Translations under genes and position numbers: made by a program
DNA from: a virus
IMG/VR virus record: IMGVR_UViG_3300031722_000119
Location: 1-31,352 of that record
Strand: one strand, 5' to 3'
DNA length: 31,352 nucleotides
Notes under the pieces: model-generated
The model's database searches: none
What the model was told of the DNA's origin: nothing
What the model saw: only the letters and a program-made list of their open reading frames with translations
In this document: in pieces, positions 15,153-30,968 of the stretch
How positions within the stretch are numbered: the first letter of the stretch is position 1
Layout of the letters: every line of letters starts with the position of its first letter

Positions 15153-15324
15153 AGCAATGAGGCACGCGATTGCCTCAGGGAAAGCAACAGAAGTAAAACA
15201 ACAGCCAGATAAAAAATGTGTAGCATGTAATGGAAGTGGACGATATGACTCAACAGGATCTCCTAAGTGTGGCGCTTGCAATGGCACAGGGTACGAATAT
15301 AAAGATGGAAGACTCACAATGTAA
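15139..15324 (+). CDS. DnaJ-type zinc-finger microprotein
   Basis: This 61-residue protein has two C-x-x-C-x-G-x-G units, CVACNGSG and CGACNGTG, separated by a short loop. This is the motif of the DnaJ cysteine-rich domain, where two such units bind one zinc. There is no J domain, so it is a free zinc finger, as in several small phage and bacterial proteins of unknown role. It overlaps both neighbours. Confidence 0.6.
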   Translation: MKPNKAMRHAIASGKATEVKQQPDKKCVACNGSGRYDSTGSPKCGACNGTGYEYKDGRLTM

Positions 15325-15988
15325 ATGCAAATTCTGTGGTAAGGCATTCCGCCAAGAGAAAACTCTAGCGGTGCATAACTGCGAAAAGAAACGCCGCCAT
15401 ATGCAGCAGAATGAAACTGGCGTGCAGCTTGGTTATCAAGCGTATCTGAAATTCTACGAGATGACGCAAGGTAGTTCGCAAAGCAAGACCTACTCTCACT
15501 TTGCTGAATCGCCCTATTACTCAGCATTCGTGAAGTTTGGCCAGTACCTTGTGTCAATACGCGCAGTCAATACAACAGCATTCATTACCTGGATCATCAA
15601 AGCCAATAAGAAGCTTGACCACTGGACAAAGGATGCAATCTACGATGAATGGCTCTACGAATATTTGCGCAAAGAGCATCCGAATGATGCCTTAGATCGT
15701 ACCTTTGCCGAGATGCAGCGTTGGGCTGACGAGACAGGGAAACCGTTCAACGTGTTTTTCACAGAGGGCGCGCCTAACAAGATTTGTAACATGATTGCCT
15801 ATGGTCGTATTTCACCGTGGATCATATTCAACTCTACTGGCGGGGTCGAATTTCTGTCTAAGCTCAACGAAGAGCAGATCGCGTTGATCTACAAAAATAT
15901 CGATCCCGAATATTGGCAACGCAAGTTCTTAGATTATGTCGCTGACGTTGAGTTCATTAAAGTAGTAACAGCAGAAGCGAACGTATGA
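15305..15988 (+). CDS. Conserved phage protein with N-terminal C2H2-like zinc finger
   Basis: This 227-residue protein opens with the finger CKCKFCGKAFRQEKTLAVH followed by NCEKKRR. The body contains SPYYSAFVKFGQYLVSIRAV, FITWIIKA and ISPWIIFNSTGG, a layout I recognise from other T4-type phages as a conserved protein without a firm function. ATG 15305 is chosen because it lies just before the finger; an in-frame ATG at 15230 would overlap the zinc-finger gene by 95 bases. A nucleic-acid role is inferred from the finger. Confidence 0.6.
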   Translation: MEDSQCKCKFCGKAFRQEKTLAVHNCEKKRRHMQQNETGVQLGYQAYLKFYEMTQGSSQSKTYSHFAESPYYSAFVKFGQYLVSIRAVNTTAFITWIIKANKKLDHWTKDAIYDEWLYEYLRKEHPNDALDRTFAEMQRWADETGKPFNVFFTEGAPNKICNMIAYGRISPWIIFNSTGGVEFLSKLNEEQIALIYKNIDPEYWQRKFLDYVADVEFIKVVTAEANV

Positions 15989-16170
15989 CTACTATAAGCG
16001 TTGATCGGTTTAGTGTTGACAAGATCTGGTATTTAGATTGCCAATGCTGGTGCATCTGCCGATTCGGCGCTTGCAGCGACAAGTGGACCTCTTCTGTTGT
16101 TGCAGATAAGCTCGACTTTGTGTTTAAGAATGATGCCGATGCAACGATGTTTGCGCTGAGGTGGGTATGA
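15985..16170 (+). CDS. DAxxFxLRW-family microprotein
   Basis: This 61-residue protein has a Trp/Cys-rich middle (WYLDCQCWCICRFG) and the family C-terminus F-V-F-K-N-D-A-D-A-T-M-F-A-L-R-W. It is the first of eight tandem genes sharing this ending. It is coupled by ATGA on both sides. Function unknown. Confidence 0.6.
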   Translation: MTTISVDRFSVDKIWYLDCQCWCICRFGACSDKWTSSVVADKLDFVFKNDADATMFALRWV

Positions 16171-16376
16171 TCTCTATTAACATGACCGAAGCAGCGAAGC
16201 ATTGGGGCAAAACAGGATATTTTGATGTGCAGGTTTGGTGCATAGATAACATCGGTGAGATGAATAACGGATGGGACAGTTCGTATTCTTACGATCCCTC
16301 GGGAGATCGCCGATTGATATTCTTGTTTGACAACGACAAAGATGCAACGATGTTTGCATTGCGGTGGATGAAATGA
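16167..16376 (+). CDS. DAxxFxLRW-family microprotein
   Basis: This 69-residue protein ends F-L-F-D-N-D-K-D-A-T-M-F-A-L-R-W-M-K, almost identical at the C-terminus to the preceding copy, while the first 45 residues differ. ATG 16167 is selected by its ATGA overlap; a GTG at 16161 is less likely. Confidence 0.6.
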   Translation: MISINMTEAAKHWGKTGYFDVQVWCIDNIGEMNNGWDSSYSYDPSGDRRLIFLFDNDKDATMFALRWMK

Positions 16377-16588
16377 TACTAGTGAAGATATCAGATGCAG
16401 ACACTGTGTTGAAAGGGATTCACCTAGGTCTCAAGATTAGTACCTGGTGCGAAGAGCAAGGCCTAGAACACCTAAAAGATTTTGAGTGGTGGCTAGTTCA
16501 TACTGATGTAAAAAGCGGAGTATATTTTCGATTCGATGATGAGTTCGAATCTACTGCAACATATTTGACACTGATGTGGGTAAAATGA
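16373..16588 (+). CDS. LRW-array microprotein, recent duplicate of the next gene
   Basis: This 71-residue protein starts MILVKI and shares with the 16585 product the blocks L-G-L-K-I-S-x-W-C, E-Q-G-L-E-H and K-D-F-E-W-W-L, plus an ending E-S-T-A-T-Y-L-x-L-M-W. The DNA is also closely similar, so the duplication looks recent. ATG 16373 is set by ATGA. Confidence 0.65.
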   Translation: MILVKISDADTVLKGIHLGLKISTWCEEQGLEHLKDFEWWLVHTDVKSGVYFRFDDEFESTATYLTLMWVK

Positions 16589-16815
16589 TACTAGTAAGAA
16601 TTGCAGACGCAAACCATGAAGAAAAAGGAACTAATCTTGGACTCAAGATTAGTAACTGGTGTAAAGAGCAAGGATTAGAACACCAAAAAGATTTCGAATG
16701 GTGGCTAGACAGCAACCATTGGACTGGCACGGGTAGGGTAACTGAAGTGCATGTCAGGTTCAGCGACGAGCACGAATCTACTGCAACCTATTTGGCACTG
16801 ATGTGGGCGAAATAA
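16585..16815 (+). CDS. LRW-array microprotein, recent duplicate of the previous gene
   Basis: This 76-residue protein is the partner of the 16373 gene, with a six- to seven-residue insertion around SNHWTGTGRV. The conserved ends and variable middle suggest that the middle is the diversifying part. ATG 16585 overlaps the previous stop. Confidence 0.65.
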   Translation: MILVRIADANHEEKGTNLGLKISNWCKEQGLEHQKDFEWWLDSNHWTGTGRVTEVHVRFSDEHESTATYLALMWAK

Positions 16816-16816
16816 T

Positions 16817-17026
16817 ATGAAGTGGGACAATAAAAATAAAGACGAACGTAGAACGAAATGGTTTGCTGTGATACCTCCTAAAATGGAGAGCATGAGGGCA
16901 GCAAAACACTGGTGTGATAACTATCACTTCTCTACTCGATATTACTATCACTACACAAATACTCGTTGGTGGTTCGAAAGCGAGTTCGACGCAGTATTGT
17001 TTTCATTACACTGGAGTGGGAGATAA
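16817..17026 (+). CDS. LRW-array microprotein
   Basis: This 69-residue protein has a basic N-terminus (WDNKNKDERRTKWF), an aromatic middle (STRYYYHYTNTRWW) and the family-like ending E-F-D-A-V-L-F-S-L-H-W. It lies one base after the previous stop. Function unknown. Confidence 0.55.
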   Translation: MKWDNKNKDERRTKWFAVIPPKMESMRAAKHWCDNYHFSTRYYYHYTNTRWWFESEFDAVLFSLHWSGR

Positions 17027-17027
17027 C

Positions 17028-17216
17028 ATGGCAGATAATAATGAGCTATGGCTTCGTATCACCGAAGATGAATATCCAGGATTGTCTGCCGCAGCTCGAC
17101 ATTCATTGAAGTGGCAAGCAGCTACAGATTATTCGCTCGCTCATAGCAGCAAGTTAGGACAACTGTATGAGCAATATGTGATAATGAGGACGTTGTCAGA
17201 AAGACCGAAAGAATGA
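17028..17216 (+). CDS. Small hypothetical protein
   Basis: This 62-residue helical protein (LSAAARHSLKWQAATDYSLA) lacks the LRW ending and stands apart from its neighbours. ATG 17028 lies one base after the upstream stop, with GGGAGA before it. It is coupled by ATGA to the next gene. Confidence 0.5.
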   Translation: MADNNELWLRITEDEYPGLSAAARHSLKWQAATDYSLAHSSKLGQLYEQYVIMRTLSERPKE

Positions 17217-17572
17217 AAGCATCACGCACCGTTCGCGTCAGTTACGAAATTGACAATACCGGAATTTACGTTAAAGCAGGGACAGACATGAAGAGAAGAA
17301 TCCGCACATTAGTCAGGTCAGGATGGACATTAGTCGAAGTTCCGATATTACCACCGTCTGACGGATACACCGCATTTGGCCATTTCATTGAAGACAAAAA
17401 TCCAGGCCAGTACAAGATGCTGTATAAATGGTGTGAAGAGAATGTGCCGTTGACTGATTGGACTTCGAGTTACCTTCAGAACAGTGCTACGGGAGGCAGA
17501 GGTGGAACCAAACGATTCGTCTTCAAAGACAAGAAATTCGCATCGTGGTTTACATTGATGACTAAGACATGA
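17213..17572 (+). CDS. LRW-array protein, longer member
   Basis: This 119-residue protein ends R-F-V-F-K-D-K-K-F-A-S-W-F-T-L-M, a divergent form of the array ending. The N-terminal half is beta-rich and basic. It is coupled by ATGA on both sides. Function unknown. Confidence 0.55.
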   Translation: MKASRTVRVSYEIDNTGIYVKAGTDMKRRIRTLVRSGWTLVEVPILPPSDGYTAFGHFIEDKNPGQYKMLYKWCEENVPLTDWTSSYLQNSATGGRGGTKRFVFKDKKFASWFTLMTKT

Positions 17573-17814
17573 TAGTAGATCAAGAATATATCACGTCGCT
17601 CCGCATATTCGGATATTCAGACCTTACGAGTTACTTAGGCTGGACTTACGTAAGCTTTCCAATGGAATTAGCGTATCTTGCTGACTCAAACGGGACTTAT
17701 CTTATTTCCTGGATGAACCAAACGTTTAACTCAACTGATTGGGTGTTTATGGTTAAGACAATGTTCTTTCGTAACGAGAAAGATGCAGCGTGCTTCATAC
17801 TAAAGTGGGTGTGA
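17569..17814 (+). CDS. DAxxFxLRW-family microprotein
   Basis: This 81-residue protein ends M-F-F-R-N-E-K-D-A-A-C-F-I-L-K-W, a clear family ending after a variable aromatic-rich body. It is coupled by ATGA upstream and TGATG downstream. Confidence 0.6.
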   Translation: MIVDQEYITSLRIFGYSDLTSYLGWTYVSFPMELAYLADSNGTYLISWMNQTFNSTDWVFMVKTMFFRNEKDAACFILKWV

Positions 17815-18110
17815 TGGGTAAATTTCATTACTGTAGCAGCGAGGATGAGCTACTGTGGCGACTTGATCCCGGATTGTACGATCAGTATATTCGGATGATC
17901 GACGAGCAGTTGATTGCTCAAAGGTTTGACATTCAGCGGTGGGTAGAAAATACCTGTACCGGAGATGTTATTGTGTGGAACGAAGTATCGGTGCCGAACG
18001 CAGGAGATCAGAACTGGCACAAAAAGATATTGCCCGAAGGGAACGCCAGGCTCTATTTTTCTGATGAGAAAGATGTTACAATGTTTATGTTACGCTGGAT
18101 TCGAAATTAA
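17814..18110 (+). CDS. DAxxFxLRW-family microprotein
   Basis: This 98-residue protein ends R-L-Y-F-S-D-E-K-D-V-T-M-F-M-L-R-W. ATG 17814 is selected by the TGATG overlap; the ATG at 17790 lies within the previous gene. It is the last of the first block of array genes. Confidence 0.6.
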   Translation: MGKFHYCSSEDELLWRLDPGLYDQYIRMIDEQLIAQRFDIQRWVENTCTGDVIVWNEVSVPNAGDQNWHKKILPEGNARLYFSDEKDVTMFMLRWIRN

Positions 18111-18118
18111 GGACCACA

Positions 18119-18706
18119 ATGAAAGTAAATAACACAGACATCGACCTTGACTTCGGGTCAAGAGAAGATGCACTAAAGCATCTACAGCATGTTCGCGCAA
18201 GCACGCAACGCAATGATGGCGTCATGACTCGTCACGCGTCTGGAGTATATTTCACCGACATCCCGCATGATATCGACGGGTACGCAACGATTGACTACAA
18301 GAATGCCGAGACTCGCGGATACTTCAAAGTCGACTTCTTGAATGTCTCGGTCTACGAGCAAGTTAAAGACGAAACCCATCTAATCAAATTGATGACAACG
18401 GAGCCACTGTGGGACCGACTGCTCGAGCGTGAGTTTTGTGAGAAGCTAATCCACTTAGGCAATTACTGGTCAATGATATGCAGCTTACCGGAACCGATCA
18501 ACTCTATTCCAAGGTTATCTATGTTCATTGCGATGATTCGTCCGGGTAAGAAACATCTGATCGGTCACCCGTGGTCTATTGTAGCGCAAACTATTTGGGA
18601 TAAGACAGATGACGGGTACACCTTCAAAAAGAGCCATTCACTGGCGTACGCACATCTCATAGTCGTTAATATGAATCTGTTGTCTGAGAATTTACCCAGC
18701 GGTTAA
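18119..18706 (+). CDS. Small protein with PolIII-alpha-like (C-family polymerase) motifs
   Basis: This 195-residue protein shows three short blocks in the order found in the bacterial replicative polymerase DnaE: F-K-V-D-F-L-N-V (69-76, like FDFLGL), F-I-A-M-I-R-P-G-K (136-144, like the ALYRPGP block), and [10 protein letters not shown] (169-178, like FNKSHSAAYA). The palm P-D-[FI]-D-x-D-F motif with the catalytic aspartates is absent, and DnaE itself exceeds 1,100 residues. It therefore cannot be a working polymerase; it may bind DNA or the clamp. Its end overlaps the reverse-strand homing endonuclease by 41 bases. Confidence 0.6.
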
Positions 18707-19418
18707 AAGTGTTTAGGGCCATTTCTTTTCTATCAACTATTCTACTTACTCGTGGCCGTTTTTGCCCGGTATTCGCTGCGGATCTCTTAGAGATAGTATC
18801 TGCTGATTGCTTTATATGCTTACCGTACATGCCGTTCGCTTCACCGAGGTGAACGCATTTAGCTAACGCTTCGGCACTATGTTTTTTGCCAAACATCGGG
18901 TTCTTTTCACCGGTCATTAAGCCAGTCAAACTTTTACTTCTCTTACTAACAGTTTCTTCAGACTGTTTTCGACCTTTGTTCTTTTTGCCACCTTTATACT
19001 TGTCGTCGTTTGGCATCGTGAGTCCTTTGTTCCATGCCGGACGACTATTCCGCGCCATCTTTAGCCGAGTCATGCCTTCTTCTGTCCACTGCTTAGGTTT
19101 CCTGAGTTTCTCTTTATGCTCATCCGAAATAATAACTATCCTACCACTTGTACCATCACCCCCGTCTGTCATATTTTGGAGAATACCAGTGACTAAGTCT
19201 TGTCGTCCGTACCATCGGATTAACCTTCGTTCTAATGCTAATGCTCCGATTTCAGTTAAGTTTGTATCGAGCAATATTATTGGATTTCCGCCAGCCGACA
19301 CGCGATGTTTTGCCCAGGCTCGATTCCCTTTGCCTTTACCGATATAGTATGGCGTTCCTGCTCTTGCTGTTTTGGAGTCTTTACTACGCAGGTATGCGTA
19401 GATGTAATAAATATTCAT
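18666..19418 (-). CDS. GIY-YIG homing endonuclease, reverse orientation
   Basis: This 250-residue protein has the GIY-YIG nuclease domain at the N-terminus: YYIYAYL (4-10), [13 protein letters not shown] (23-35), then [11 protein letters not shown] and [12 protein letters not shown]-binding region with NUMOD3-like repeats follows ([18 protein letters not shown]). Such enzymes cut related phage genomes lacking the gene and spread by repair. It is read against all neighbours, sits between small-gene blocks, and overlaps the previous gene tail to tail by 41 bases. A CATAAATA late-type motif lies upstream. Confidence 0.88.
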
Positions 19419-19443
19419 GCTGACATTGTCCTATAATGTTAGA

Positions 19444-19474
19444 GTGAGCAGATATTTGCAGTATCGTGGCTCAC
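19444..19474. repeat. Inverted repeat in the leader of the reverse-strand endonuclease
   Basis: GTGAGC (19444-19449) and GCTCAC (19469-19474) form a 6-bp stem. Inside it, GATA (19451-19454) and TATC (19462-19465) add a nested 4-bp stem. On the reverse strand this sits right after the predicted late start, upstream of the ATG at 19418. T4 homing genes also carry leader hairpins that limit early translation; a similar role is inferred. Confidence 0.35.
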
Positions 19475-19477
19475 ACT

Positions 19478-19485
19478 TATTTATG
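19478..19485 (-). promoter_or_regulatory. Candidate T4-type late promoter (CATAAATA)
   Basis: On the reverse strand the sequence reads CATAAATA, one mismatch from TATAAATA, about 60 bases before the endonuclease ATG. It is a motif match only. Confidence 0.4.
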
Positions 19486-19494
19486 CCAGGTCGC

Positions 19495-19523
19495 TTGACT
19501 GCGACTGATTTTTACTGTATAGT
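19495..19523 (+). promoter_or_regulatory. Sigma70 promoter for a leaderless transcript
   Basis: TTGACT (19495-19500) and TATAGT (19518-19523) have a 17-base spacer, then six bases, then ATG at 19530. The predicted start is the A of ATG. The promoter lies back to back with the reverse-strand late motif at 19478. Confidence 0.75.
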
Positions 19524-19529
19524 GGTACT

Positions 19530-19835
19530 ATGAAATTAGTCTTTCATCCTGAACCGAGCACGCTATCAAAGCCAATGATTGACTTCCAACTTGAATTCAA
19601 CGGGGAGAACAGACATCTAATCGTGAACTATGTCCCAATCATAGCCTGGCTAGTCGAGCATGTAGGCGAATTAGGTGCTTATGAAGACGATGAATGGCCA
19701 CAAGGTAACGGGTGGGAAGTAGGGTATGACTACCACGATAAAACCGGGCGCCCTTGGGAGAATAATCATTACGTCGTAATACGTAGAGACATAGATGAGA
19801 AGTTGCTAACTGAATTCTACTTGAGGTTCTCATGA
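19530..19835 (+). CDS. Small array protein (IDEKLLTEFxLRF family), leaderless
   Basis: This 101-residue protein ends D-I-D-E-K-L-L-T-E-F-Y-L-R-F-S, shared almost exactly with the next gene. W-L-V-E-H-V-G-E-L and W-x-[VI]-G are also shared with it. The final x-F-x-L-R-F resembles the LRW ending of the 15985-18110 genes. It is leaderless from the promoter at 19495. Function unknown. Confidence 0.6.
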   Translation: MKLVFHPEPSTLSKPMIDFQLEFNGENRHLIVNYVPIIAWLVEHVGELGAYEDDEWPQGNGWEVGYDYHDKTGRPWENNHYVVIRRDIDEKLLTEFYLRFS

Positions 19836-20110
19836 TGTTTAGTATGGTACCAGCCGATAAGCATTTAGATGATGGAATGAATTTTGAGAATATTCAATAC
19901 TGGCGCGATCTACCAATAATCCAATGGTTAGAGACGCACGTGGGAAAATTATCTGCTGACGGTAAATGTGGGAGTGAATGGACGATAGGCTGCTGTCACG
20001 AGCATGATTACCTGTTCAAACCCGGCCACTGGCGCCAGCGGCATTACATTCAGATAACGGCTGACATAGATGAGAAGTTACTTACTGAATTTGCGTTGAG
20101 GTTCTCATGA
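19832..20110 (+). CDS. Small array protein (IDEKLLTEFxLRF family)
   Basis: This 92-residue paralog of the 19530 product shares I-I-x-W-L-E-T-H-V-G-K-L and the ending D-I-D-E-K-L-L-T-E-F-A-L-R-F-S. It is coupled by ATGA at both ends; tandem ATGs at 19832 and 19835 are possible starts. Confidence 0.6.
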   Translation: MMFSMVPADKHLDDGMNFENIQYWRDLPIIQWLETHVGKLSADGKCGSEWTIGCCHEHDYLFKPGHWRQRHYIQITADIDEKLLTEFALRFS

Positions 20111-20355
20111 TAATTGATTTGCGGAGCGCTGGCTACTACCAGATGCGAACCTGGGCTGACTTGATAGATATAATCGTAGAGGAGTGCGGACATCCGTGGG
20201 GGAGTACGGGATTCGCTGAATTTGTTCGAGTTCGGTGGGGCATGGTATTTCACTACAATAATCCGAAAGCATTATCGCAAGCCACAAGCATCGAAATTGA
20301 CGAGTCGGCGTTGCTTATGCTCGAATTGAAATATTACGGACGAGTTGAATTTTGA
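20107..20355 (+). CDS. Small array protein (IDFRS family)
   Basis: This 82-residue protein begins MIIDLRSAG, like the next two genes (VDFRN, IDFRS), and ends E-I-D-E-S-A-L-L-M-L-E-L-K-Y. The middle has F-V-R-V-R-W-G-M-V-F-H, matching W-x-I-T-[SF]-L-H in the neighbours. It overlaps the next gene by TTGA. Confidence 0.6.
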   Translation: MIIDLRSAGYYQMRTWADLIDIIVEECGHPWGSTGFAEFVRVRWGMVFHYNNPKALSQATSIEIDESALLMLELKYYGRVEF

Positions 20356-20639
20356 TAAAGGTTGATTTCAGAAACATCAGCAAGATGAACTTTCGTAACG
20401 ACTACGGAGTGTACCAAACAGTAACAGGGCAAACCTGGTATTGGACTCAGGTTTTACGAGGGCTAAAGAACGATAGCGGCCTGCCTCTGTTTAACGATGA
20501 GTTTGAGGATTGGCTCAAGAAAGAATGGGGCATCACTTCCTTGCATGAGGAACAAGATTTCCGATCACATTTAACTGGACTATCCATGAACGATGAAACA
20601 TTCACTATGATATTACTGAGATTCCAATATGAGGATTGA
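20352..20639 (+). CDS. Small array protein (IDFRS family), TTG start
   Basis: This 95-residue protein starts with TTG at 20352, overlapping the previous stop as TTGA. The start is supported by conservation of the N-terminus (I-K-V-D-F-R-N) with the flanking paralogs. It shares W-x-x-V-L-R-x-L-K-x-[DE]-S-G, E-W-G-I-T and the ending S-M-N-D-E-T-F-T-M-I-L-L-R-F with the 20629 gene. Confidence 0.65.
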   Translation: MIKVDFRNISKMNFRNDYGVYQTVTGQTWYWTQVLRGLKNDSGLPLFNDEFEDWLKKEWGITSLHEEQDFRSHLTGLSMNDETFTMILLRFQYED

Positions 20640-20925
20640 TTTCAGATCATCACACGGAATGGACTTAGATTCGGAATTTACTAGATGCCATGCTGACCAG
20701 GCTCTAATAGGTCAGAAAGCGGGATTCTGGAGCCGAGTCCTCAGAGAGTTAAAAGCAGAGAGCGGCCGCAATTTGTATGATGCCGGATTCGAGGAATGGG
20801 TTAAAGATGAATGGACCATTACCTTCTTACACGAGAACAACGAATATCCAACCCACATCACTGGATTAGATATGAATGATTCGACCTTCACTATGGTGTT
20901 GCTAAAGTTCGGAAATAGTAATTAG
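20629..20925 (+). CDS. Small array protein (IDFRS family)
   Basis: This 98-residue protein is the nearest paralog of the 20352 gene, with M-R-I-D-F-R-S, FWSRVLRELKAESG, E-W-T-I-T-F-L-H and D-M-N-D-S-T-F-T-M-V-L-L-K-F. It overlaps its neighbour by 11 bases upstream. Its stop codon overlaps the stop of the reverse-strand gene (TTAG at 20922-20925). Confidence 0.65.
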   Translation: MRIDFRSSHGMDLDSEFTRCHADQALIGQKAGFWSRVLRELKAESGRNLYDAGFEEWVKDEWTITFLHENNEYPTHITGLDMNDSTFTMVLLKFGNSN

Positions 20926-21299
20926 ACTACCCGGCGGACTAAGGTAATTGAACGACGCTTACCTTTGCGCAGCGCAATTTCTTTCAGACTGATATACGGT
21001 CCGCATTTTATCTCGACATCTTTCGTGTTGAGAGTTTTCAACGTAGTACGGAACACAGCCCACTCTGTTTTGAGGAACAGATTGATCGGCGTGCAACGAT
21101 TCGATTCCCACCACCATTCTTCCGCTAACTGCAAAAACATCAGTTTTTGCTCGTCAGTCTTTAAGACAGTGAAATCATAAATCGTAGTGATAAAGTCGTC
21201 GACGTTCTGGACAATACCGATATACTCGTTCCCACCGTATGAAATGATCGTCAAATAGGGATGCTGGTCTGATAGTTTCTGTTTGTATTGGTCGTCCAT
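20922..21299 (-). CDS. Conserved phage protein, reverse orientation
   Basis: This 125-residue protein has the blocks HPYLTIISYGGNEYIGIVQN, E-E-W-W-W-E-S-N-R, PINLFLK, KDVEIKCGP and a basic C-terminus. I recognise the pattern from other large phages without a known function. The start at 21299 (MDDQYKQ) is preferred; a longer reading to 21386 would run through the divergent promoter region. It converges with the 20629 gene, the stops overlapping by four bases. Confidence 0.6.
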   Translation of the reverse strand: MDDQYKQKLSDQHPYLTIISYGGNEYIGIVQNVDDFITTIYDFTVLKTDEQKLMFLQLAEEWWWESNRCTPINLFLKTEWAVFRTTLKTLNTKDVEIKCGPYISLKEIALRKGKRRSITLVRRVV

Positions 21300-23340: not shown

Positions 23341-24060
23341 ATGTATGAATCTACAAAAGCTATGCCGTATGTCTATTTTGGCATCAATAGAATAACAGGC
23401 GAACTATATATCGGATATAGAGAAGCAAATAAATTACCGTCTACGGTAGACTTATTTATTTATAGAACATCGTCAAAAATAGTCCGACCTAAATTCGATG
23501 AATATGATTGGCAAGTGGCGGCGGAATTTTTCTTAGGTAATGATGCATATGATTTCGAGCAATATCTTATTTGTGAAAATTGGGGTAATCCGTTATTGTT
23601 AAACAGGCAGTATAGGCTCCCGTCGGGAGAAAGGAGATTTAAAAGTATAAAGGGATTAAAGCGAGGTCCGCAATCAGATGAACGGAAGGCAGTTACCTCG
23701 AAAGCTCTTAAAGGATTAAAGCGAGGTCCGCAATCAGCTGAACACATAGCAAAACTCGTCAAAGCAAGAAAAGGCAAGCTAAATCGCGGTACAAATACAA
23801 AAGAGCATAATGCAAAAATTTCCGCCGCCAAAAAAGGAGTTAGCATAGGGCCATCAAAGAAAAGTGTTTGTCCGCATTGCGGGTTGCTATGCGGCCCCGG
23901 TGTAATGAAACAATACCATTCGGACAACTGCTTAAAAGCGCCGAATTCAATTCCTCGCCAAACTGTAACATGTCCTCATTGTAATAAAGAAGGTAATCCA
24001 GGGCAAATGAAAAGATATCATTTCAGCAATTGCAAATTAAATAAAGGTATAGATAAATGA
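23341..24060 (+). CDS. GIY-YIG homing endonuclease with two CCHC zinc fingers
   Basis: This 239-residue protein has an N-terminal GIY-YIG nuclease domain: PYVYFGINRITGELYIGYR (9-27), with a conserved Arg at 27, F-E-Q-Y-L-I around 71-76, and N-P-L-L-L-N (82-87). The middle has tandem KGLKRGPQS repeats of NUMOD type (103-131). The C-terminus has two zinc fingers of form C-P-H-C-x(12)-Y-H-x(3)-C at about 176-196 and 210-230. It lies between the primase and helicase genes, overlapping the helicase start by ATGA, and probably targets this conserved replication locus. Confidence 0.88.
   Translation: MYESTKAMPYVYFGINRITGELYIGYREANKLPSTVDLFIYRTSSKIVRPKFDEYDWQVAAEFFLGNDAYDFEQYLICENWGNPLLLNRQYRLPSGERRFKSIKGLKRGPQSDERKAVTSKALKGLKRGPQSAEHIAKLVKARKGKLNRGTNTKEHNAKISAAKKGVSIGPSKKSVCPHCGLLCGPGVMKQYHSDNCLKAPNSIPRQTVTCPHCNKEGNPGQMKRYHFSNCKLNKGIDK
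23653..23737 (+). repeat. Direct repeat inside the endonuclease gene
   Basis: A 25-base sequence at 23653-23677 is repeated identically at 23713-23737, exactly 60 bases (20 codons) later. It encodes the GLKRGPQS unit of the DNA-binding region. The exact identity suggests a recent internal duplication. Confidence 0.75.
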
Positions 24061-25475
24061 CTACAGATTATAATTCAGCAACTCAGAAGTTGTTCTTAGA
24101 GATGATGATTGGCAATCCTGAATCGTATGTACGAGTTCAGAATATATTCAATCCGGAAAATTTTGATCGATCACTTCGAGAGCCCGCAGCATTTATAAAA
24201 ACACATGTTGATGCGTTTAAAGTGATGCCGACCATAGATCAGATCAACGCAACATGCGGCACAGAATTTAAGTTACTCACTGGATTAGAAGCAGACCACT
24301 ATGACTGGTTCTTAGTCGAGTTTGAAAGTTTCAACAAGCGTAAAGAATTAGAGCGTGCAATTCTACTGTCGGCAGACCTGCTTGAGAAAGGGAATTACGA
24401 CCCGGTAGAAGGACTGATTAAGGCAGCAGTGCAGATCGGGCTAGTCAAGAACATTGGTACTGATTACTTTGCTGATCCGAGGGCAAGGTTGTTAGCAATC
24501 AAAGCAGGCAACGGGCAGGTTAGCACAGGGTGGCCAGGTCTTGATCGCGCATTGTTTGGCGGTATGAATCGCGGCGAGTTGAATATTTTTGCAGGGTGTT
24601 CTGGATCAGGTAAATCACTGTTCATGCAGAATATCAGCGTCAATTGGGTTACTGCTGGACTGAACGGAATCTACCTTACATTAGAACTTAGTGAGGGATT
24701 GTGCGCAATGCGTATCGACTCAATGATCGCAAACTGTAGCACAAAGGAAGTGTTCAAGAACCTCGACGATGTTGAGCTGAAGATTAAGATGGCAAGTAAG
24801 AAGTCTGGCAAGTTCCAGATCAAATACCTCCCAGCGCAAAGCACAGTCAACGATATTCGTGCGTTCGTAAAAGAATTCCAGGTCCAAACTAAAGCAAAAG
24901 TCGACTTCATGATGGTCGATTACTTAGACCTGCTTATGCCTGTAACAGCTAAAGTAAGCCCTAACGACCTGTTCATTAAAGACAAATACGTATCAGAAGA
25001 ATTGCGCAACTTAGCGAAAGAATTGAACATCCTGTTTATCACAGCATCGCAGTTGAATCGTTCGGCAGTTGATGAAGTAGAATTTGACCACAGCAATATC
25101 TCGGGTGGTATTTCTAAGATCAATACAGCAGATAACGTGTTTGGTATTTTCACATCGAGGCAAATGCGGGAACGAGGTAAGTATCAGCTTCAATTATTGA
25201 AGACACGGTCGTCAAGCGGAGTAGGATCTAAGGTCGATCTCGACTTCAATATTGAAAGCCTGCGTATTGTTGACTGTGGCGAAGAGCCGCAGACAGGGCC
25301 AACGCCAAATGCTATCCTAGGCAAAATTAAACCTAAGTCAACAGTAACATCGAATCCGACAGAAATTATCGATAAGACAACGGGTGAGATAACTAAGGTG
25401 CCACAAGCTGAAATACAAGCATCGAAATTAAAGAATATGATTGCGAACCTTAGTAAGCCTCAACCAGCAGCGTAA
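24057..25475 (+). CDS. Replicative DnaB-family helicase, T4 gp41-like
   Basis: This 472-residue protein is nearly the length of T4 gp41 (475). It should form a hexamer moving 5'-3' on the lagging strand and join the primase in the primosome. The RecA-like core shows Walker A FAGCSGSGKS (178-187, Lys186), catalytic Glu210 in LTLEL, and Walker B DFMMVDYLD (283-291, Asp288). ITASQLNRSAV and the conserved ISGGISK segment follow. An N-terminal DnaB-like helical domain (about 1-130) precedes the core. The start overlaps the endonuclease stop (ATGA). It is the original downstream partner of the primase gene. Confidence 0.92.
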   Translation: MTTDYNSATQKLFLEMMIGNPESYVRVQNIFNPENFDRSLREPAAFIKTHVDAFKVMPTIDQINATCGTEFKLLTGLEADHYDWFLVEFESFNKRKELERAILLSADLLEKGNYDPVEGLIKAAVQIGLVKNIGTDYFADPRARLLAIKAGNGQVSTGWPGLDRALFGGMNRGELNIFAGCSGSGKSLFMQNISVNWVTAGLNGIYLTLELSEGLCAMRIDSMIANCSTKEVFKNLDDVELKIKMASKKSGKFQIKYLPAQSTVNDIRAFVKEFQVQTKAKVDFMMVDYLDLLMPVTAKVSPNDLFIKDKYVSEELRNLAKELNILFITASQLNRSAVDEVEFDHSNISGGISKINTADNVFGIFTSRQMRERGKYQLQLLKTRSSSGVGSKVDLDFNIESLRIVDCGEEPQTGPTPNAILGKIKPKSTVTSNPTEIIDKTTGEITKVPQAEIQASKLKNMIANLSKPQPAA

Positions 25476-25525: not shown

Positions 25526-25783
25526 TTGCAAAAACGGATCAGATCAACGCTCGACGAATTAGATAACTTGTTATCTCATAGGGACAGAGAAAGTCTCTTA
25601 GAAAGTCGAGCTACTAACATCATCACTGGAGCAATCAACATTATCAATGCGATTCGGGAGAGTTATTCTCCCGATATTGCTGCCGACTTAGAACGTCGTC
25701 TTATTAACAGCATACGTGGCCAAGACACTGCTAAGTTTATCCGTGGGGTAAGAAAACTCAAGGAAAATAGGCATGAAGATTAA
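25526..25783 (+). CDS. Conserved T4-type small helical protein, TTG start
   Basis: This 85-residue protein has the pattern K-R-[IV]-R-S-T-L-D-E-L-D-x-L-L, E-S-R-A-x-N-I-I-x-G-A-I-N-I-I, L-E-R-R-L-[IL]-N-S-I-[RK]-G and F-x-R-G-[VI]-R-K. I recognise it as a conserved helical protein of T4-like phages without a function. No ATG precedes the conserved region; TTG at 25526 with GGGG seven bases upstream is the best start. It overlaps the next gene by 11 bases. Confidence 0.65.
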   Translation: MQKRIRSTLDELDNLLSHRDRESLLESRATNIITGAINIINAIRESYSPDIAADLERRLINSIRGQDTAKFIRGVRKLKENRHED

Positions 25784-26477
25784 TGAGATCATTGTTGAAT
25801 CAGAAGAGTTAGAGGAGGCCGGATGGCGCGATGTAGTTAGCAAGATAAATCCGCTGTCACAACAGAATCGGACTGCTCGAGCAGATAAACAGGCAGCAGC
25901 AGATTACGCAACCCTCAGCAAAGATTCAGCACGTCGAAATCAAGAGGTAGTAAAGAATTGGATTTATAACTGGAACAGAATCTCGGCCGGCATGCCTGAA
26001 GAACGGTTAAACTCTCCAGAAAAATACGCTGCTGAACTAACCGCATTTGCTCAACGAGCATTACACAATAACGCATTCACTGTAGGATCAGCGCCAGCAA
26101 TTACTTTCAACGGAGTCCCGTCTAAATCTACGGTTACACCACAATCTGTAACGGCATTTATGACCGCAGCGGTGGCTCAAAAAGATGTCCCGCCACCTGC
26201 AAATTCACAGCAAGCACAACCTGCAGCACCAGAACAATCACCTGCTCAAGCAGCAACCACAGCAAGAGATAACGGGCCAGTTCCGGACCCAGGGCATTGG
26301 ATCCAGATAATTACACCTAAAGAAAAGCATGTCTATTATAAGACGGATAAGGGTTGGATAACTTCGGACCGCCAGCCTGTTCCTTCTGAGACAAGTATTA
26401 AGTTTTTAAATGATATAGCTGATTCTAGTGGCAGACAAATTCTCCCTAAAAATCAGTTCAATGCCAAACGGAGATGA
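25773..26477 (+). CDS. Putative packaged protein with capsid-targeting-like N-terminus, unknown body
   Basis: This 234-residue protein begins MKINEIIVE|S, where the bar marks the T4-type prohead protease site [IL]-x-E. An alpha-helical region follows to about residue 95, then a long Pro/Ala/Gln-rich linker (about 145-175), then a small C-terminal domain H-W-I-Q-I-I-T-P-x-E-K-H-V-Y-Y-K-T-D-K-G-W. No enzymatic motif is recognised. It is the first of nine genes sharing the N-terminal peptide. Confidence 0.55.
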   Translation: MKINEIIVESEELEEAGWRDVVSKINPLSQQNRTARADKQAAADYATLSKDSARRNQEVVKNWIYNWNRISAGMPEERLNSPEKYAAELTAFAQRALHNNAFTVGSAPAITFNGVPSKSTVTPQSVTAFMTAAVAQKDVPPPANSQQAQPAAPEQSPAQAATTARDNGPVPDPGHWIQIITPKEKHVYYKTDKGWITSDRQPVPSETSIKFLNDIADSSGRQILPKNQFNAKRR

Positions 26478-26480
26478 TAC

Positions 26481-27245
26481 ATGAGATTAACAGAAGGTGG
26501 CAACGTATTTCCAGACGTAACAGCGATTAAGAAAGAATATGTCCCGGGACTAATCAACGATATTCAAAAGATTGTCCCTGCCGGCATTTCTATCATCCCA
26601 CATATTGGCTCAGCAGGATTCAAAGTTGAGTCTGGCGATATGGACGTATTCATCGATGCTAACGCAGTGTCAGAATATTTCGGCGGGCTTGATGAGAAGA
26701 AATCTAAGATTGCGTTGAAGAAATATATCGAGGATCAAGGGTTCCAATGTGCGCTATCTGGTCGTAACGTGCATGTCAGAATGCCGGTGCCAGACGGAAC
26801 ATTCGTGCAGTGCGATCTCATGATCATACCAAACGCAGCCAAGGTAGCGCCATTCCACACGCACGGGCCATCAGGTCAATACGATGACCCAGAATTTAAA
26901 GGCGGTCAGTTGTTTATACTCTATTCAAGCCTAGCTAAAGCGTTGAACCTAAAGTTTAGCCCATTCGAAGGTAAGCTAATCGACCGCAACACCAACGAGG
27001 TAATAGCCGACGACAAAGATACAGTAGCAAAGATTCTGCTCAACAAGAATGCAACAGCAGCAGATTTAGCGTCAGTTAAGTCGATCATCCGGGCATTAGC
27101 TAATGACCCTCGTAAAGAAGAAAAATTAGCGCAAGCAAGAGCTGATGCTACTAAAGGACTGATTACGTTGCCAGAATCAATTCAACCTGGCAGTTCGATG
27201 TGGTTTAGAACTATGGCAAATTTATTTGGGACTTCTAACGTATGA
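26481..27245 (+). CDS. Pol-beta-type nucleotidyltransferase-like protein, putatively packaged
   Basis: This 254-residue protein has the nucleotidyltransferase signature HIGSAG (41-46) followed by G-D-M-D-V-F-I-D (52-59). Gly43/Ser44 are the GS motif, Asp53 and Asp55 the first two metal ligands, and F-V-Q-C-D-L-M (108-114) supplies the third carboxylate, Asp112. These are all the catalytic elements of the fold. The family transfers nucleotides to RNA, protein or small molecules; the substrate here is unknown. The start MRLTE|G contains an L-x-E site near the N-terminus, a short form of the cluster's peptide. It is coupled by ATGA to the next gene. Confidence 0.7.
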   Translation: MRLTEGGNVFPDVTAIKKEYVPGLINDIQKIVPAGISIIPHIGSAGFKVESGDMDVFIDANAVSEYFGGLDEKKSKIALKKYIEDQGFQCALSGRNVHVRMPVPDGTFVQCDLMIIPNAAKVAPFHTHGPSGQYDDPEFKGGQLFILYSSLAKALNLKFSPFEGKLIDRNTNEVIADDKDTVAKILLNKNATAADLASVKSIIRALANDPRKEEKLAQARADATKGLITLPESIQPGSSMWFRTMANLFGTSNV

Positions 27246-27664
27246 AATCAACCGAATTTATAACTGAAGATGATGCACAATTTGCACCAGAAAACAAAAC
27301 GATACGTGGCTTTTTGTCTGCTATCGTTACTTGGTGGAATAAGACAGCGGCTAGAGATATGAGAATCTATACTCAAGATGTTGGCATGAAGGTATGGACT
27401 CGTGGTGACGGGGTACGTATGCGTGACCCAGCAAAAATTCTATCTGCTGGCCCGGGCAATGCATTAGATTCTGTATGGGACGCATTGTCAAAGCTCAAAG
27501 GTGCTAGGGTAGTTGGTAACGTATCTCATGAATTCCCGTCGTTGGGAAATAGTCCAGCAATTCAATATAAGGGATTGGTCTTAGTTAAACGAAATACTAG
27601 CATTGATGTGATGTCGAAGAGCCGTATTACTAATCCGAGATCGGTTTGGAAACAACAGCAGTGA
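27242..27664 (+). CDS. Putative packaged protein, unknown body
   Basis: This 140-residue protein starts MKSTEFITE|D, a strong match to the T4 capsid-targeting peptide (MKTYQEFIAE). The basic body has no recognised motif (SAGPGNALDSVWDALSKLKG, then VSHEFPSLGNSPAIQYKG). At DNA level the first 28 bases differ from the start of the 28425 gene at only one position. It overlaps both neighbours by four bases. Confidence 0.6.
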   Translation: MKSTEFITEDDAQFAPENKTIRGFLSAIVTWWNKTAARDMRIYTQDVGMKVWTRGDGVRMRDPAKILSAGPGNALDSVWDALSKLKGARVVGNVSHEFPSLGNSPAIQYKGLVLVKRNTSIDVMSKSRITNPRSVWKQQQ

Positions 27665-28428
27665 AATCGTCTGAATTCATAACTGAAGTTAAAGACTACC
27701 AGCACGAATCGATATCGATAGAAAAAGCAGTAGCATTGCTGAACGAACATTGTCGTGAATCACTAGCAACAATTCATGCTCCACTATGGCGCGGAATGAG
27801 AGATCATTTTGGGGAAGTCGTAACGATTGACCCGACGACTGGCTTACGCAAATCAGCAAACACCTCTAACTATTACACGTTGTTGATAGACAATAGTCCA
27901 TATTTTGAGGGCTGGCCAAAGCGCAGTAAAAGTTTGATTTGTTCTACTTGGCATAGATATGCATCTGACTATGGCAGACTATACGCTATCTTTCCATTCG
28001 ACGGCGTGAAGATTGCAGTCTGCCATAGTAAAGATATTTGGGAGACACAGGTTAATATTCCGGAATTAGGTATTCATACCTCAGGACCTGATTCTATGCG
28101 TCGATTTAACCAATATTTATACAGGATTGGGTTCCCCCAATCTTGGCATGGAATAGTTAAGGCAGCAAAATCGGAAGCTACACAAAAATCATTACGGCTC
28201 AATGTTCTAATTGCTCTGCAGGATCGTATTCCTTCTCCAGACAACGTATTGCCGACATTATTAGCAGGAATGGCACCAGAATTAACTAAGTTCAAATTAA
28301 TGTCTATTGCTGAGTTTGCAGCTGAGCCACCGCAGAATAAAGAATGTTGGGTCGGAGGTCCAGTTGTAGCAATTCGAAAAGACATATATGAAAAGTTTCT
28401 AGACGCCGTCCAACAAGGAGCAGTATGA
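27661..28428 (+). CDS. ADP-ribosyltransferase-like protein, putatively packaged, GTG start
   Basis: This 255-residue protein starts with GTG at 27661, giving (M)KSSEFITE|V. An ATG five codons earlier would spoil the conserved peptide, and the GTGA overlap supports GTG. The body has P-L-W-R-G-M, then R-K-S-A-N-T-S-N, then R-S-K-S-L-I-C-S-T followed by A-S-D-Y-G and I-F-P-F-D-G. This order recalls the R and S-T-S motifs of ADP-ribosyltransferases; a final E-x-E motif is not clear. T4 Alt is a packaged ADP-ribosyltransferase, so the analogy is attractive but tentative. Confidence 0.6.
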   Translation: MKSSEFITEVKDYQHESISIEKAVALLNEHCRESLATIHAPLWRGMRDHFGEVVTIDPTTGLRKSANTSNYYTLLIDNSPYFEGWPKRSKSLICSTWHRYASDYGRLYAIFPFDGVKIAVCHSKDIWETQVNIPELGIHTSGPDSMRRFNQYLYRIGFPQSWHGIVKAAKSEATQKSLRLNVLIALQDRIPSPDNVLPTLLAGMAPELTKFKLMSIAEFAAEPPQNKECWVGGPVVAIRKDIYEKFLDAVQQGAV

Positions 28429-29096
28429 AATCAACTGAATTTATAACTGAAGCTCCGTTGCCAGACGATTGGGATACAAAGGCGTTCTCGTCTTTCAATC
28501 CTATTAAAAAACAGGTTGCATATGCACTAGAAAGATCTAAGAAAATTGGATCGGGCTCGAGTAGAATTGTGACCAGCATTATGTATCAAGGTCGCCCTAC
28601 CGCGTTAAAAATCGCTAAGAACAAAAAAGGTTTAGCACAGAATGAAGCAGAGTTAGCGATAGTCAATGACGGGTATGCAAAAGGTATGGCTATCATTATC
28701 CCGTTGATCGACTATGATAAAGAGAGTGTCATACCGCGCTGGATTCAATTTGAGATGGCCGAGAAAGCAAACGAGAAACAGTTGTGCGCTATTATGAAAT
28801 GCGCCCGTCTAACTGATGTATTATTGATTGCTGGGATTATATCAGGAAAGAATAGAGATGGAGGTGACAGAATCGCCTCGTCAGTTAATGTTCAACGAGC
28901 AGCCGCAGGATACTCTAGTCAAGAAGATGAAGATACGTTCTATGAATACGTGAATGAGCTAGCAGAGTTAGCTAACAGCTTTGACATTGAGTTAGTCGAC
29001 TTTCAGACTGCTAGTAACTGGGGAATATATAAAGGTCGGGCTGTCATTATCGACGTTGGGTTTACTAGCGGTGTGGCATCGTCCCATTATTCGTGA
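28425..29096 (+). CDS. Protein-kinase-like protein, putatively packaged
   Basis: This 223-residue protein starts MKSTEFITE|A. It then shows kinase elements: glycine loop IGSGSSRIV (41-49), A-L-K-I with Lys62 (VAIK-type), E74 in NEAEL (helix C), a catalytic-loop-like V-D-F-Q-T-A-S-N-W-G (191-200, Asp192 and Asn198), and I-I-D-V-G-F (208-213, Asp210, the DFG position). All core positions are present in order, in a small protein. The target is unknown. It is coupled to the upstream gene by ATGA. It is distinct from the next three genes, which share a different kinase-like layout. Confidence 0.65.
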   Translation: MKSTEFITEAPLPDDWDTKAFSSFNPIKKQVAYALERSKKIGSGSSRIVTSIMYQGRPTALKIAKNKKGLAQNEAELAIVNDGYAKGMAIIIPLIDYDKESVIPRWIQFEMAEKANEKQLCAIMKCARLTDVLLIAGIISGKNRDGGDRIASSVNVQRAAAGYSSQEDEDTFYEYVNELAELANSFDIELVDFQTASNWGIYKGRAVIIDVGFTSGVASSHYS

Positions 29097-29104
29097 GATA
29101 ATAG

Positions 29105-29710
29105 ATGAAAGCAAACGAATTCATCACTGAGTACATCGACCCGAAATTTGTCAATTCCGAGATCAAGAAAACAGACTGGCAGAAAGTAGGTGCTGGAGCG
29201 ACCGCATCAGTATGGCATCACTTAGAGGATCCTAATACTGTAGTTAAAGTTATCGGCGGTGGTCGAGATCGTATTACAAAACAGTTCCGTAATACGGCAA
29301 TTGCTTTCGTTCACTTTTGTGTAGATCACGGGCACGAGAGTCCGCACTTCCCGATCATCCACGGCATTAACATAGACGACGAAGATATCGTGCAGATTAG
29401 GATCGAACGACTAGTAGAGTTGCCAAATTTAGCAGTCAATCGACGGTTAGAGAGTGTAGCAGAAACGGTTGACTACTATTCAGTGACGCGTGCTAGGGAC
29501 GAGATAGAAGTATTAGATGAAGCTATCGCGAAATATCCGATTCTTCAAAACAATTCAGGAATAGAAATCGCGAAAGCCGTTAAGTTGCTGTCTAAGTATG
29601 TTGAGTCTTACACAAGGAAACATAAAACAGTAGCGGGGTTAGATCTCCATTATGGCAATTGGCTAATGCGTCCAAATGGCATTATCGTAGCAGCGGATCC
29701 TTGGTACTAA
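29105..29710 (+). CDS. Kinase/APH-like protein, putatively packaged (paralog 1 of 3)
   Basis: This 201-residue protein starts MKANEFITE|Y. Features are glycine loop V-G-A-G-A-T-A-S-V-W (28-37), V-V-K-V with Lys48, the paralog-specific block FVHFCVDHGHESPHFPIIHG, catalytic loop L-D-L-H-Y-G-N-W (179-186, Asp180, Asn185), and a terminal A-A-D-P-W-Y with Asp198 in the metal position. The DLHxxN...D layout is typical of aminoglycoside-phosphotransferase-like kinases. The substrate is unknown. It lies one base before its paralog at 29712. Confidence 0.65.
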   Translation: MKANEFITEYIDPKFVNSEIKKTDWQKVGAGATASVWHHLEDPNTVVKVIGGGRDRITKQFRNTAIAFVHFCVDHGHESPHFPIIHGINIDDEDIVQIRIERLVELPNLAVNRRLESVAETVDYYSVTRARDEIEVLDEAIAKYPILQNNSGIEIAKAVKLLSKYVESYTRKHKTVAGLDLHYGNWLMRPNGIIVAADPWY

Positions 29711-29711
29711 T

Positions 29712-30341
29712 ATGAAAATAAATGAGATCATAGCCGAAGATGTTCCATCCGCCTTCATCAATTCGGAAATCAAGAAGGACAAGCAATGGAAGAAGATGGG
29801 GTCCGGTGTTACTGCATCGGTGTGGAGGCACATGGAAGATCCGACTACCGTAGTGAAGGTTGTTGGGGGCGGGATGATGAATAGTCGACCGAGTTACCGG
29901 TCCGGAGCAATCGCTTTTGTTCACTTCTGCGTGGATCATGGCCACGAGAGTCCACATTTCCCAATCATTCACGGCATTAATGTTGATGACGATGATGTTG
30001 TGCAAATACGATTAGAGACATTGTTGCCTATCGTAAATTATGATATCGCAACCGGTTGTGCTAACATAGCAAGCGATGTTAAAGAGTACGGAGTCAAGGA
30101 CTATCGATGTGTCGATAGTATGAATTCACTCGACCGACTCCTCCACCATGAAAATACACAAATGAGGGGACACAATTCCGCCGCAAGTATTGCTGAAGCA
30201 TGTGATATACTAGTAAAAAATGCGCCGCATTATGCGAAGGCGTACAAACTAGAAGTATTGAGATTAGATTTGCATTTCGGTAATTGGATGATGCGTGGAG
30301 ACAATACGATTGTAGCAGCGGATCCGTGGTATGCTATATAA
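29712..30341 (+). CDS. Kinase/APH-like protein, putatively packaged (paralog 2 of 3)
   Basis: This 209-residue protein starts MKINEIIAE|D. It has glycine loop G-S-G-V-T-A-S-V-W (30-38), Lys49 in V-V-K-V-V, the HF-C-V-D-H-G-H-E-S-P-H-F-P block, R-L-D-L-H-F-G-N-W (Asp186, Asn191) and A-A-D-P-W-Y (Asp204). It aligns over its full length with the 29105 and 30351 products; the middle third differs most. All catalytic positions are intact. Confidence 0.65.
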   Translation: MKINEIIAEDVPSAFINSEIKKDKQWKKMGSGVTASVWRHMEDPTTVVKVVGGGMMNSRPSYRSGAIAFVHFCVDHGHESPHFPIIHGINVDDDDVVQIRLETLLPIVNYDIATGCANIASDVKEYGVKDYRCVDSMNSLDRLLHHENTQMRGHNSAASIAEACDILVKNAPHYAKAYKLEVLRLDLHFGNWMMRGDNTIVAADPWYAI

Positions 30342-30350
30342 AGAGATAAT

Positions 30351-30968
30351 ATGAGAATAAATGAGGTAATCACAACAGACGAAGATGTCGACCCTAGGTT
30401 TGTCAATTCTGAAATTAAGAAAACGGCCTGGCAGGAAGTAGGACAAGGTGCAACCGCATCAGTATGGCAACATATGGATGAGCCAACCACTGTAGTCAAA
30501 GTAGTTGGCGGAGGAGAGGAGGAGATGACAGAAGAGACTCGTAACACAGCAATTGCTTTTGTTCACTTTTGTGTAGATCATGGCCACGAGAGCTCACACT
30601 TTCCTATCATTCACGGCATTAACGTAGACGACGAAGATGTCGTGCAGATCAGAATCGAACGGTTATCTAGCTTGCCGGGCGGCACTGTAGGATCTATGTT
30701 AGCAGATTTAGCGGATGCTGTGGAATATCACGGAATAACAAACAGGATAATTCCGTATATTACCAGACTAGACAAATGCTTGCAGCAACACGAAAATCTA
30801 AAACTCAATTCGGCGCAAGACATAGCGTATGCAATCGCTATACTATTGTAACATGAAAAATTCTATTCGAAATTGCATAAGACTGAAGTGACATTGGATT
30901 TACACTACGCGAATTGGCTAATGCGACAGGATGGCACTATAGTCGCCGCAGATCCTTGGTACGGATAA
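30351..30968 (+). pseudogene. Kinase/APH-like paralog 3 of 3, interrupted by an in-frame TAA
   Basis: The open frame from ATG 30351 stops at TAA 30849-30851 after 166 residues. The same frame then continues without shift to TAA 30966-30968, reading L-D-L-H-Y-A-N-W-L-M-R and A-A-D-P-W-Y, the catalytic end of its two paralogs. One nonsense codon therefore splits an otherwise full-length 205-codon gene. Stopping there removes the catalytic loop and metal-binding Asp while keeping the glycine loop and Lys. The N-terminus is M-R-I-N-E-V-I-T-T-D-E, a degenerate form of the targeting peptide. The loop also reads A where the paralogs have G. It may be decaying, read through, or a sequencing error. 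Confidence 0.7.

Follow-up and report, generated by a model that had tools for sequence, protein, structure and literature searches.

What kind of proteins is encoded by a crowded run of short genes inside the replication module of a large virus, and why do so many of them end alike? The question is raised by a 31-kb virus record in IMG/VR (IMGVR_UViG_3300031722_000119), the full 31,352 nucleotides of which were analysed and are called the window here. The original prediction, made from the sequence alone, described the genes between positions 15985 and 20925 as an expanded array of small proteins with a common C-terminal motif, possibly a diversified pool of host-binding or anti-defence proteins. 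Our analysis indicates that the array very probably represents lineage-expanded small proteins, held in a fixed accessory slot of the replication module and chained by a Shine-Dalgarno site lying in the codons of their shared motif. The window contained no tRNA genes, and a search of an annotated phage collection with it returned no near match. Its DnaB-like helicase (24057-25475) shared 49% identity with its counterpart in Pseudomonas phage PA5oct and 45% with the one in Agrobacterium phage Atu_ph07, and relatives of this helicase with 53-78% identity were common in IMG/VR. Because of these similarities the window was assigned to the group of PA5oct, Atu_ph07 and Sinorhizobium phage Phosso, and, by this sequence criterion, it is part of a jumbo myovirus genome cut through the replication module.

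The shared endings proved to belong to a protein family, which is termed family A in this work and defined by the pattern W-C helix ... F-x-F ... D-A-x-x-F-x-L-R-W. Its profile was started from the gene endings, extended over the whole domain and iterated over the fetched loci, yielding about 985-995 open reading frames (ORFs) in 189 loci. A search across phages with a profile of the endings, as originally suggested, had therefore uncovered a real family, and the control with reversed ORFs gave no score under E 0.2. When the profile of ~985 members was run against ~45,000 ORFs, the eight genes in the left part of the array scored between E 3e-4 and 1e-14. A strict regular expression for the motif matched three ORFs of the window versus none in 100 Markov-simulated windows, and a loose expression matched 12 versus a mean of 1.5. 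The simulated windows, along with the reversed-ORF controls, ruled out chance as the source of the C-terminal motif.

Family A proteins were single-domain proteins of about 60-120 amino acids (median 77), near-neutral (median net charge −1) and rich in tryptophan (5.7%). Of the 995 members, 976 carried the domain at the C-terminus, and practically no domain fusions hinted at a function. Conservation was concentrated in W-C (helix 1), W (strand 2), F-x-F (strand 3) and D-A-x-x-F-x-L-R-W (last helix), and most of the remaining profile columns were near background. The predicted variability of the gene bodies was borne out in this form: judged by profile conservation, a few conserved positions appear to define one scaffold and the rest varies. 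No match to family A was found in Pfam, PHROGs, NCBIfam, PADLOC or the PDB, where scattered weak hits of single members stayed at chance level; a Pfam scan of 55 members likewise gave no match. A pattern search gave 38 matches in genomes of bacteria and archaea, of which a single one was a true array. It lay on a 6.4-kb contig of a Bacteroidetes metagenome-assembled genome (L333, DLXM01000070.1) that carried a long family A run and is probably a jumbo-phage contig binned with its host. Family A looks virus-specific and is not described in the open-access papers of PubMed Central (PMC) that were searched.

The array occupies a defined address. Gene order in the window ran from a uvsW-like helicase gene through two conserved genes to an anchor gene with a zinc-finger-like N-terminus (15230..15988, plus strand; PHROG 11058, phrog_11058 E 5.7e-60), followed by slot 1, a DnaE-like DNA polymerase gene (18119..18706, plus strand; phrog_11778 E 1.8e-59) and slot 2. 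The DnaE-like gene is the right anchor of slot 1 and the left anchor of slot 2, which ends at a conserved minus-strand gene (20922..21299; phrog_11637 E 2e-32); a BppU-like gene and the primase and DnaB genes come next. The first anchor was syntenic in PA5oct, Atu_ph07, Phosso and many IMG/VR loci, the last was syntenic in the relatives, and the DnaE-like gene had 39-75% identity there. In relatives retrieved through their DnaB gene, slot 1 contained almost every family A gene, and slot 2 almost every gene of a second family, described below as family B. An independent sample, retrieved with a short DNA pattern, comprised 158 array loci, of which 49 contained the anchor gene and 31 the DnaE-like gene; wherever the coordinates of both were listed, the family A genes lay between them.

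The content of slot 1 varied widely, from eight family A genes in the window to nine in relative locus L012 and at least 19 in L037; in many relatives, PA5oct among them, the slot was empty, with anchors −7 to +1 bp apart. Whole genomes carried 43 (Phosso), five (Atu_ph07) and three (PA5oct) copies, the majority of them outside the replication module, and a 344-kb contig had up to 22 copies, outside slot 1. Other cargo of slot 1 in some loci comprised apparent radical-SAM, exonuclease-like and nucleotidyltransferase-like genes, all assigned from reading the sequence. The radical-SAM-like genes were located within or beside family A arrays (L041:1127-2317 and L037:4198-5145). The apparent exonuclease-like genes closed arrays right before the DnaE-like gene (L041:5394 and L037:6578), and related genes occurred in 24 array loci.

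The junctions between the genes suggest how such a variable chain could stay expressed. The statement that nearly all genes are coupled by ATGA was mostly right: of the ten junctions between 15988 and 18119, this 4-nt overlap occurred at six, a 1-nt overlap at one, a 1-nt gap at two and an 8-nt gap at one, and a 62-amino-acid gene (17028..17216, plus strand) had been overlooked. In gene 15985, the L-R-W codons are CTGAGGTGG; they hold GAGGTGG at 16158-16164 and place GAGG 5 nt before the ATG of 16167. For the codon statistics, relatives were chosen irrespective of codon use, and loci picked by an AGG-containing pattern were left out because the pattern itself contains AGG. The arginine of L-R-W was encoded by AGG in 175 of 213 tightly coupled genes (82%), as against 16 of 53 genes not closely followed by a start (30%; Fisher 1e-12) and 162 of 2304 other arginine codons of family A genes (7%; Fisher 4e-134). 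Arginine itself was present at this position in 81% of coupled versus 58% of uncoupled genes (p 2e-5), and a Shine-Dalgarno core 4-13 nt before an overlapping start followed 56% of family A genes versus 27% of other genes. In the window, the AGG form was limited to some junctions (15985, 19530 and 19832). We infer from these sequence statistics that the array members are translationally coupled via a Shine-Dalgarno site in the motif codons. This coupling, the range of copy numbers and the variable scaffold lend support to the proposed matched expression of a diversified pool. The two roles of the last codons would explain both the sharp ending and a cassette that can be inserted anywhere in the chain. 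In those parts of the literature that we consulted, we saw no earlier description of a junction in which a protein motif also serves as the ribosome-binding site of the next gene.

That AGG use and arginine identity at L-R-W vary with coupling could also mean that the shared ending is mainly an RNA signal, reflecting the ribosome-binding site of the next gene instead of a protein family. We consider this highly improbable. Parts of the motif (F-x-F, D-A) lie over 30 nt upstream of the signal, the W-C helix is half a protein away, and the profile alignment covers a whole domain with a confidently predicted fold. Of 93 genes with no start close downstream, 77 retained the final tryptophan, a retention that marks it as a protein-level feature as well and rules out a pure RNA-signal origin; the RNA signal is kept as an additional constraint on the final codons.

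Gene by gene, slot 1 read as follows, all on the plus strand. Family A genes 1 and 2 encode proteins of 61 (15985..16170; profile E 7e-12) and 69 amino acids (16167..16376; E 1e-14), the latter being the one modelled with AlphaFold2. Gene 3 (16373..16588; 71 amino acids, E 3e-4) is a paralogue of gene 4 (16585..16815; 76 amino acids, E 8e-5), and gene 5 (16817..17026; 69 amino acids, E 9e-7) precedes the 62-amino-acid gene, which matched neither a PHROG nor the family A profile. Gene 6 (17213..17572; 119 amino acids, E 6e-9) has an N-terminal extension and a degenerate terminal motif. The slot closes with gene 7 (17569..17814; 81 amino acids, E 1e-8) and gene 8 (17814..18110; 98 amino acids, E 2e-10), which retains L-R-W though it is separated by the 8-nt gap from a gene with its own AAGGA site. 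All eight genes listed in the original prediction thus exist and have a common C-terminal half, except that 17213 lacks the final L-x-W and ends in FTLMTKT.

The second block, which had been described as ending similarly, turned out to be composite. It is parted from the first by the DnaE-like gene and by a minus-strand homing endonuclease gene with a GIY-YIG-like N-terminus inserted in slot 2 (18666..19418; NUMOD3 E 5e-9, phrog_314 E 1.2e-10), a 62% identical copy of which was present at the same position in L012. The plus-strand genes 19530..19835 (101 amino acids, ending in L-R-F with an AGG codon) and 19832..20110 (92 amino acids) are mutually 51% identical paralogues. The former aligned in register with the family A profile at E 0.0011 with the window alone and 0.1 with the full set, the latter scored 0.002 and 0.18, respectively, and both are probable, if distant, family A members on sequence grounds. 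The remaining three plus-strand genes received no significant score from the family A profile and belong to family B, which has 15 members: 20107..20355 (82 amino acids, E 1e-23 with the family B profile), 20352..20639 (95 amino acids, TTG start, E 5e-28) and 20629..20925 (98 amino acids, E 5e-29, modelled with AlphaFold2). Alignment of the two profiles with hhalign gave a weak link, in register (probability 51%, P 1.6e-4). Family B is kept apart as a family of its own, possibly a distant relation of family A. A further small array family, ending in D-A-L/M-M-I-A-L-K-Y, was observed at L012:3559-3987 and L037:1007-1402 and is possibly a third relative of both.

How the repertoire arose was examined through its paralogues. 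Genes 16373 and 16585, which had been regarded as recent duplicates, were 66% identical over 71 codons with a 5-amino-acid insertion, a proportion of synonymous differences (pS) of 0.61, a synonymous divergence (dS) of 1.28 and a ratio of nonsynonymous to synonymous divergence (dN/dS) of 0.17. By this synonymous change and identity they are old, which refutes a recent origin. Across the pairs that could be measured, dN/dS was 0.17-0.22, indicating purifying selection. Some members had reciprocal best matches in other loci, as 16817 with L019:4031-4240 (44% identity) and L012:2410 with L041:2582 and L037:1399. Over all 703 genes, the best paralogue was adjacent 172 times versus 171 expected; tandem duplication was rejected as the source of all diversity because of this chance-level adjacency. 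Close paralogue pairs, a tenth of the genes, were adjacent in 29 of 73 cases versus 14 expected, about a twofold excess. Tandem duplication, then long retention and divergence, appears to fit these sequence comparisons best.

Structure prediction, suggested as a check of the array, was run for 16167 and 20629. The AlphaFold2 model of 16167, aligned with 54 relatives, was a compact beta-alpha-beta-beta-alpha arrangement (predicted local distance difference test, pLDDT, 92.8; predicted template-modelling score, pTM, 0.78). The order of elements is similar to that of ferredoxin-like and RRM-like domains, from which the model differs in lacking the last strand, as it terminates in helix 57-67 plus two residues, and to which no sequence link was found; the ferredoxin-like fold is incomplete in this sense. 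Its best match in the PDB was a designed protein (DALI-scale Z 6.2, root-mean-square deviation 2.5 over 60 residues), and RRM (Z 5.5) and KH domains (Z 4.9) gave generic matches, Z below 8 being taken as a common arrangement of elements and no more. In BFVD, many entries matched the model at Foldseek probability 1.00, all of them uncharacterised, and PA5oct and Atu_ph07 proteins appeared further down the same match list. The family B protein 20629 was modelled as beta-alpha-alpha-beta-beta-alpha (pLDDT 79) and showed almost no resemblance among the PDB matches listed. The last four elements of the two models run in the same order, a likeness between predicted structures that does not establish homology of families A and B.

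None of the slot neighbours names a function for family A. We favour, tentatively, a set of small proteins that bind changeable partners, for instance proteins of the host or of its defences, because of the constant core, the variable positions, the copy-number variation, the accessory slot and the matched expression. In the anatomy, which is very probable on sequence grounds, each gene ends in the conserved helix D-A-x-x-F-x-L-R-W, the codons of which supply the next gene's Shine-Dalgarno site, with the start in the ATGA overlap; the array is then a chain of self-sufficient cassettes, and a duplicated or inserted cassette would leave it translated. In the functional proposal, family A proteins would be produced alongside the products of the replication genes in the early or middle phase of infection, with a constant core carrying a variable surface. 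Different members would probably bind different host or competitor targets, for example host enzymes or defence proteins, and such a division of targets would explain the turnover in number and sequence alongside purifying selection on each gene. Several observations weigh against this proposal. The variable surface is derived from profile conservation, not from coordinates. Whole-gene dN/dS of about 0.2 gives no sign of positive selection, a possible trace of an arms race, in a comparison where dS is near saturation. A PADLOC scan of 89 family A members had a best E of 0.0015, the chance level for 89 tests. The empty slot 1 of many relatives implies that the array is dispensable there, and the cultured PA5oct and Atu_ph07 carry few members. 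Anatomy and function taken as one explanation fall somewhat short of an even chance in our judgement. It is doubtful whether the scheme extends to a general cassette principle for phage protein repertoires, in which any paralogue can be plugged in anywhere in one slot and which would provide a standing anti-host or anti-defence repertoire common across environmental jumbo phages.

The main rival holds that these are accessory proteins of replication or nucleic-acid metabolism, small ferredoxin-like or RRM-like domains binding phage DNA, RNA or replisome proteins. The array does lie within a conserved replication module (uvsW, DnaE-like, primase and DnaB genes), and in the PDB the 16167 model comes closest to generic ferredoxin-like, RRM and KH domains. 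However, these resemblances remain below the level at which more than a common arrangement is meant, the near-neutral charge reveals no basic bias, most members in Phosso, PA5oct and Atu_ph07 reside away from the replication module, and a part of the replisome is not expected to range from zero to at least 19 copies; this role seems unlikely. A role as virion or injected internal proteins is quite improbable. The phage probably packages proteins, given the capsid-targeting-like N-termini encoded at 25773-30851, but family A members have no such N-terminus, and PA5oct gp237, gp210 and gp209 are without the electrospray ionization tandem mass spectrometry (ESI-MS/MS) note that many of their neighbours have, although with proteins this small a missing detection is weak evidence. 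The arrays might also be mainly non-adaptive, tandem duplications filling the genome of a large capsid, with genes that lack individual functions and are kept because the chain keeps them translated. The preferential adjacency of close paralogues and the dispensability implied by empty slots agree with this, as do the runs of over 30 similar genes arrayed in tandem in phages G and 121Q, which have been interpreted as products of duplication (Hua et al. 2017, PMC5646251). The purifying selection in all measurable pairs, the ancient divergence of most members and the reciprocal best matches of some in other phages argue against it, and we regard it as rather improbable.

Among known systems, the phage G and 121Q arrays are among the closest counterparts of family A arrays: both are long runs of paralogues in a jumbo phage, read as growth by tandem duplication, and a review makes a comparable statement on tandem gene arrays (PMC13282480). 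A fixed slot and a Shine-Dalgarno site within a motif are not described in the passages of PMC5646251 consulted. The complete genomes of phages G and 121Q gave no family A match at E up to 1, so that, by sequence comparison, their arrays are analogous and not detectably homologous. RaK2, SCTP-2, XaC1 and Vibrio phage 2.275.O had no significant family A member either. Bacillus phage G further contains a lineage-specific expansion of a zinc ribbon in about 35 copies (PMC7824862), likewise one small domain of unknown function expanded in one jumbo phage; it is a different domain, and family A has no zinc-ribbon pattern. Proteins of PA5oct, Atu_ph07, Phosso and uncultured Caudovirales (BFVD) belong to the same family and are annotated as hypothetical only. 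On this comparison of sequences, the arrangement appears to be of a known kind and the family new. About a thousand unnamed jumbo-phage genes are brought together on one scaffold with a fixed address, countable copies and empty sites, which makes a testable system, and the overlap of motif and ribosome-binding site offers a concrete reason why arrays can expand and still be expressed. Should the members be directed at hosts or their defences, the slot would be a place to mine new inhibitors, and the relatives Phosso, Atu_ph07 and PA5oct would be culturable carriers for testing function.

Outside the array, a second probable GIY-YIG endonuclease gene was noticed at 23341-24060, between the primase and DnaB helicase genes, where PA5oct has none. 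Further downstream, a row of genes at 25773-30851 (25773, 27242, the 27646 region, 28425, 29105, 29712 and 30351) encodes variants of an N-terminal M-K-x-x-E-F/I-I-x-E sequence, which we take to resemble the capsid-targeting sequence of T4 internal head proteins; several of these proteins may be packaged in the virion. The last part of the row, 29105-30851, consists of three paralogues in tandem that carry a kinase-like pattern (GxGxTASVWxH ... LDLHxGNW), and 29712 matched phrog_15752 (protein kinase, inhibitor of host transcription) at E 5e-6. Together with their N-terminal sequence, these paralogues could be injected kinases.

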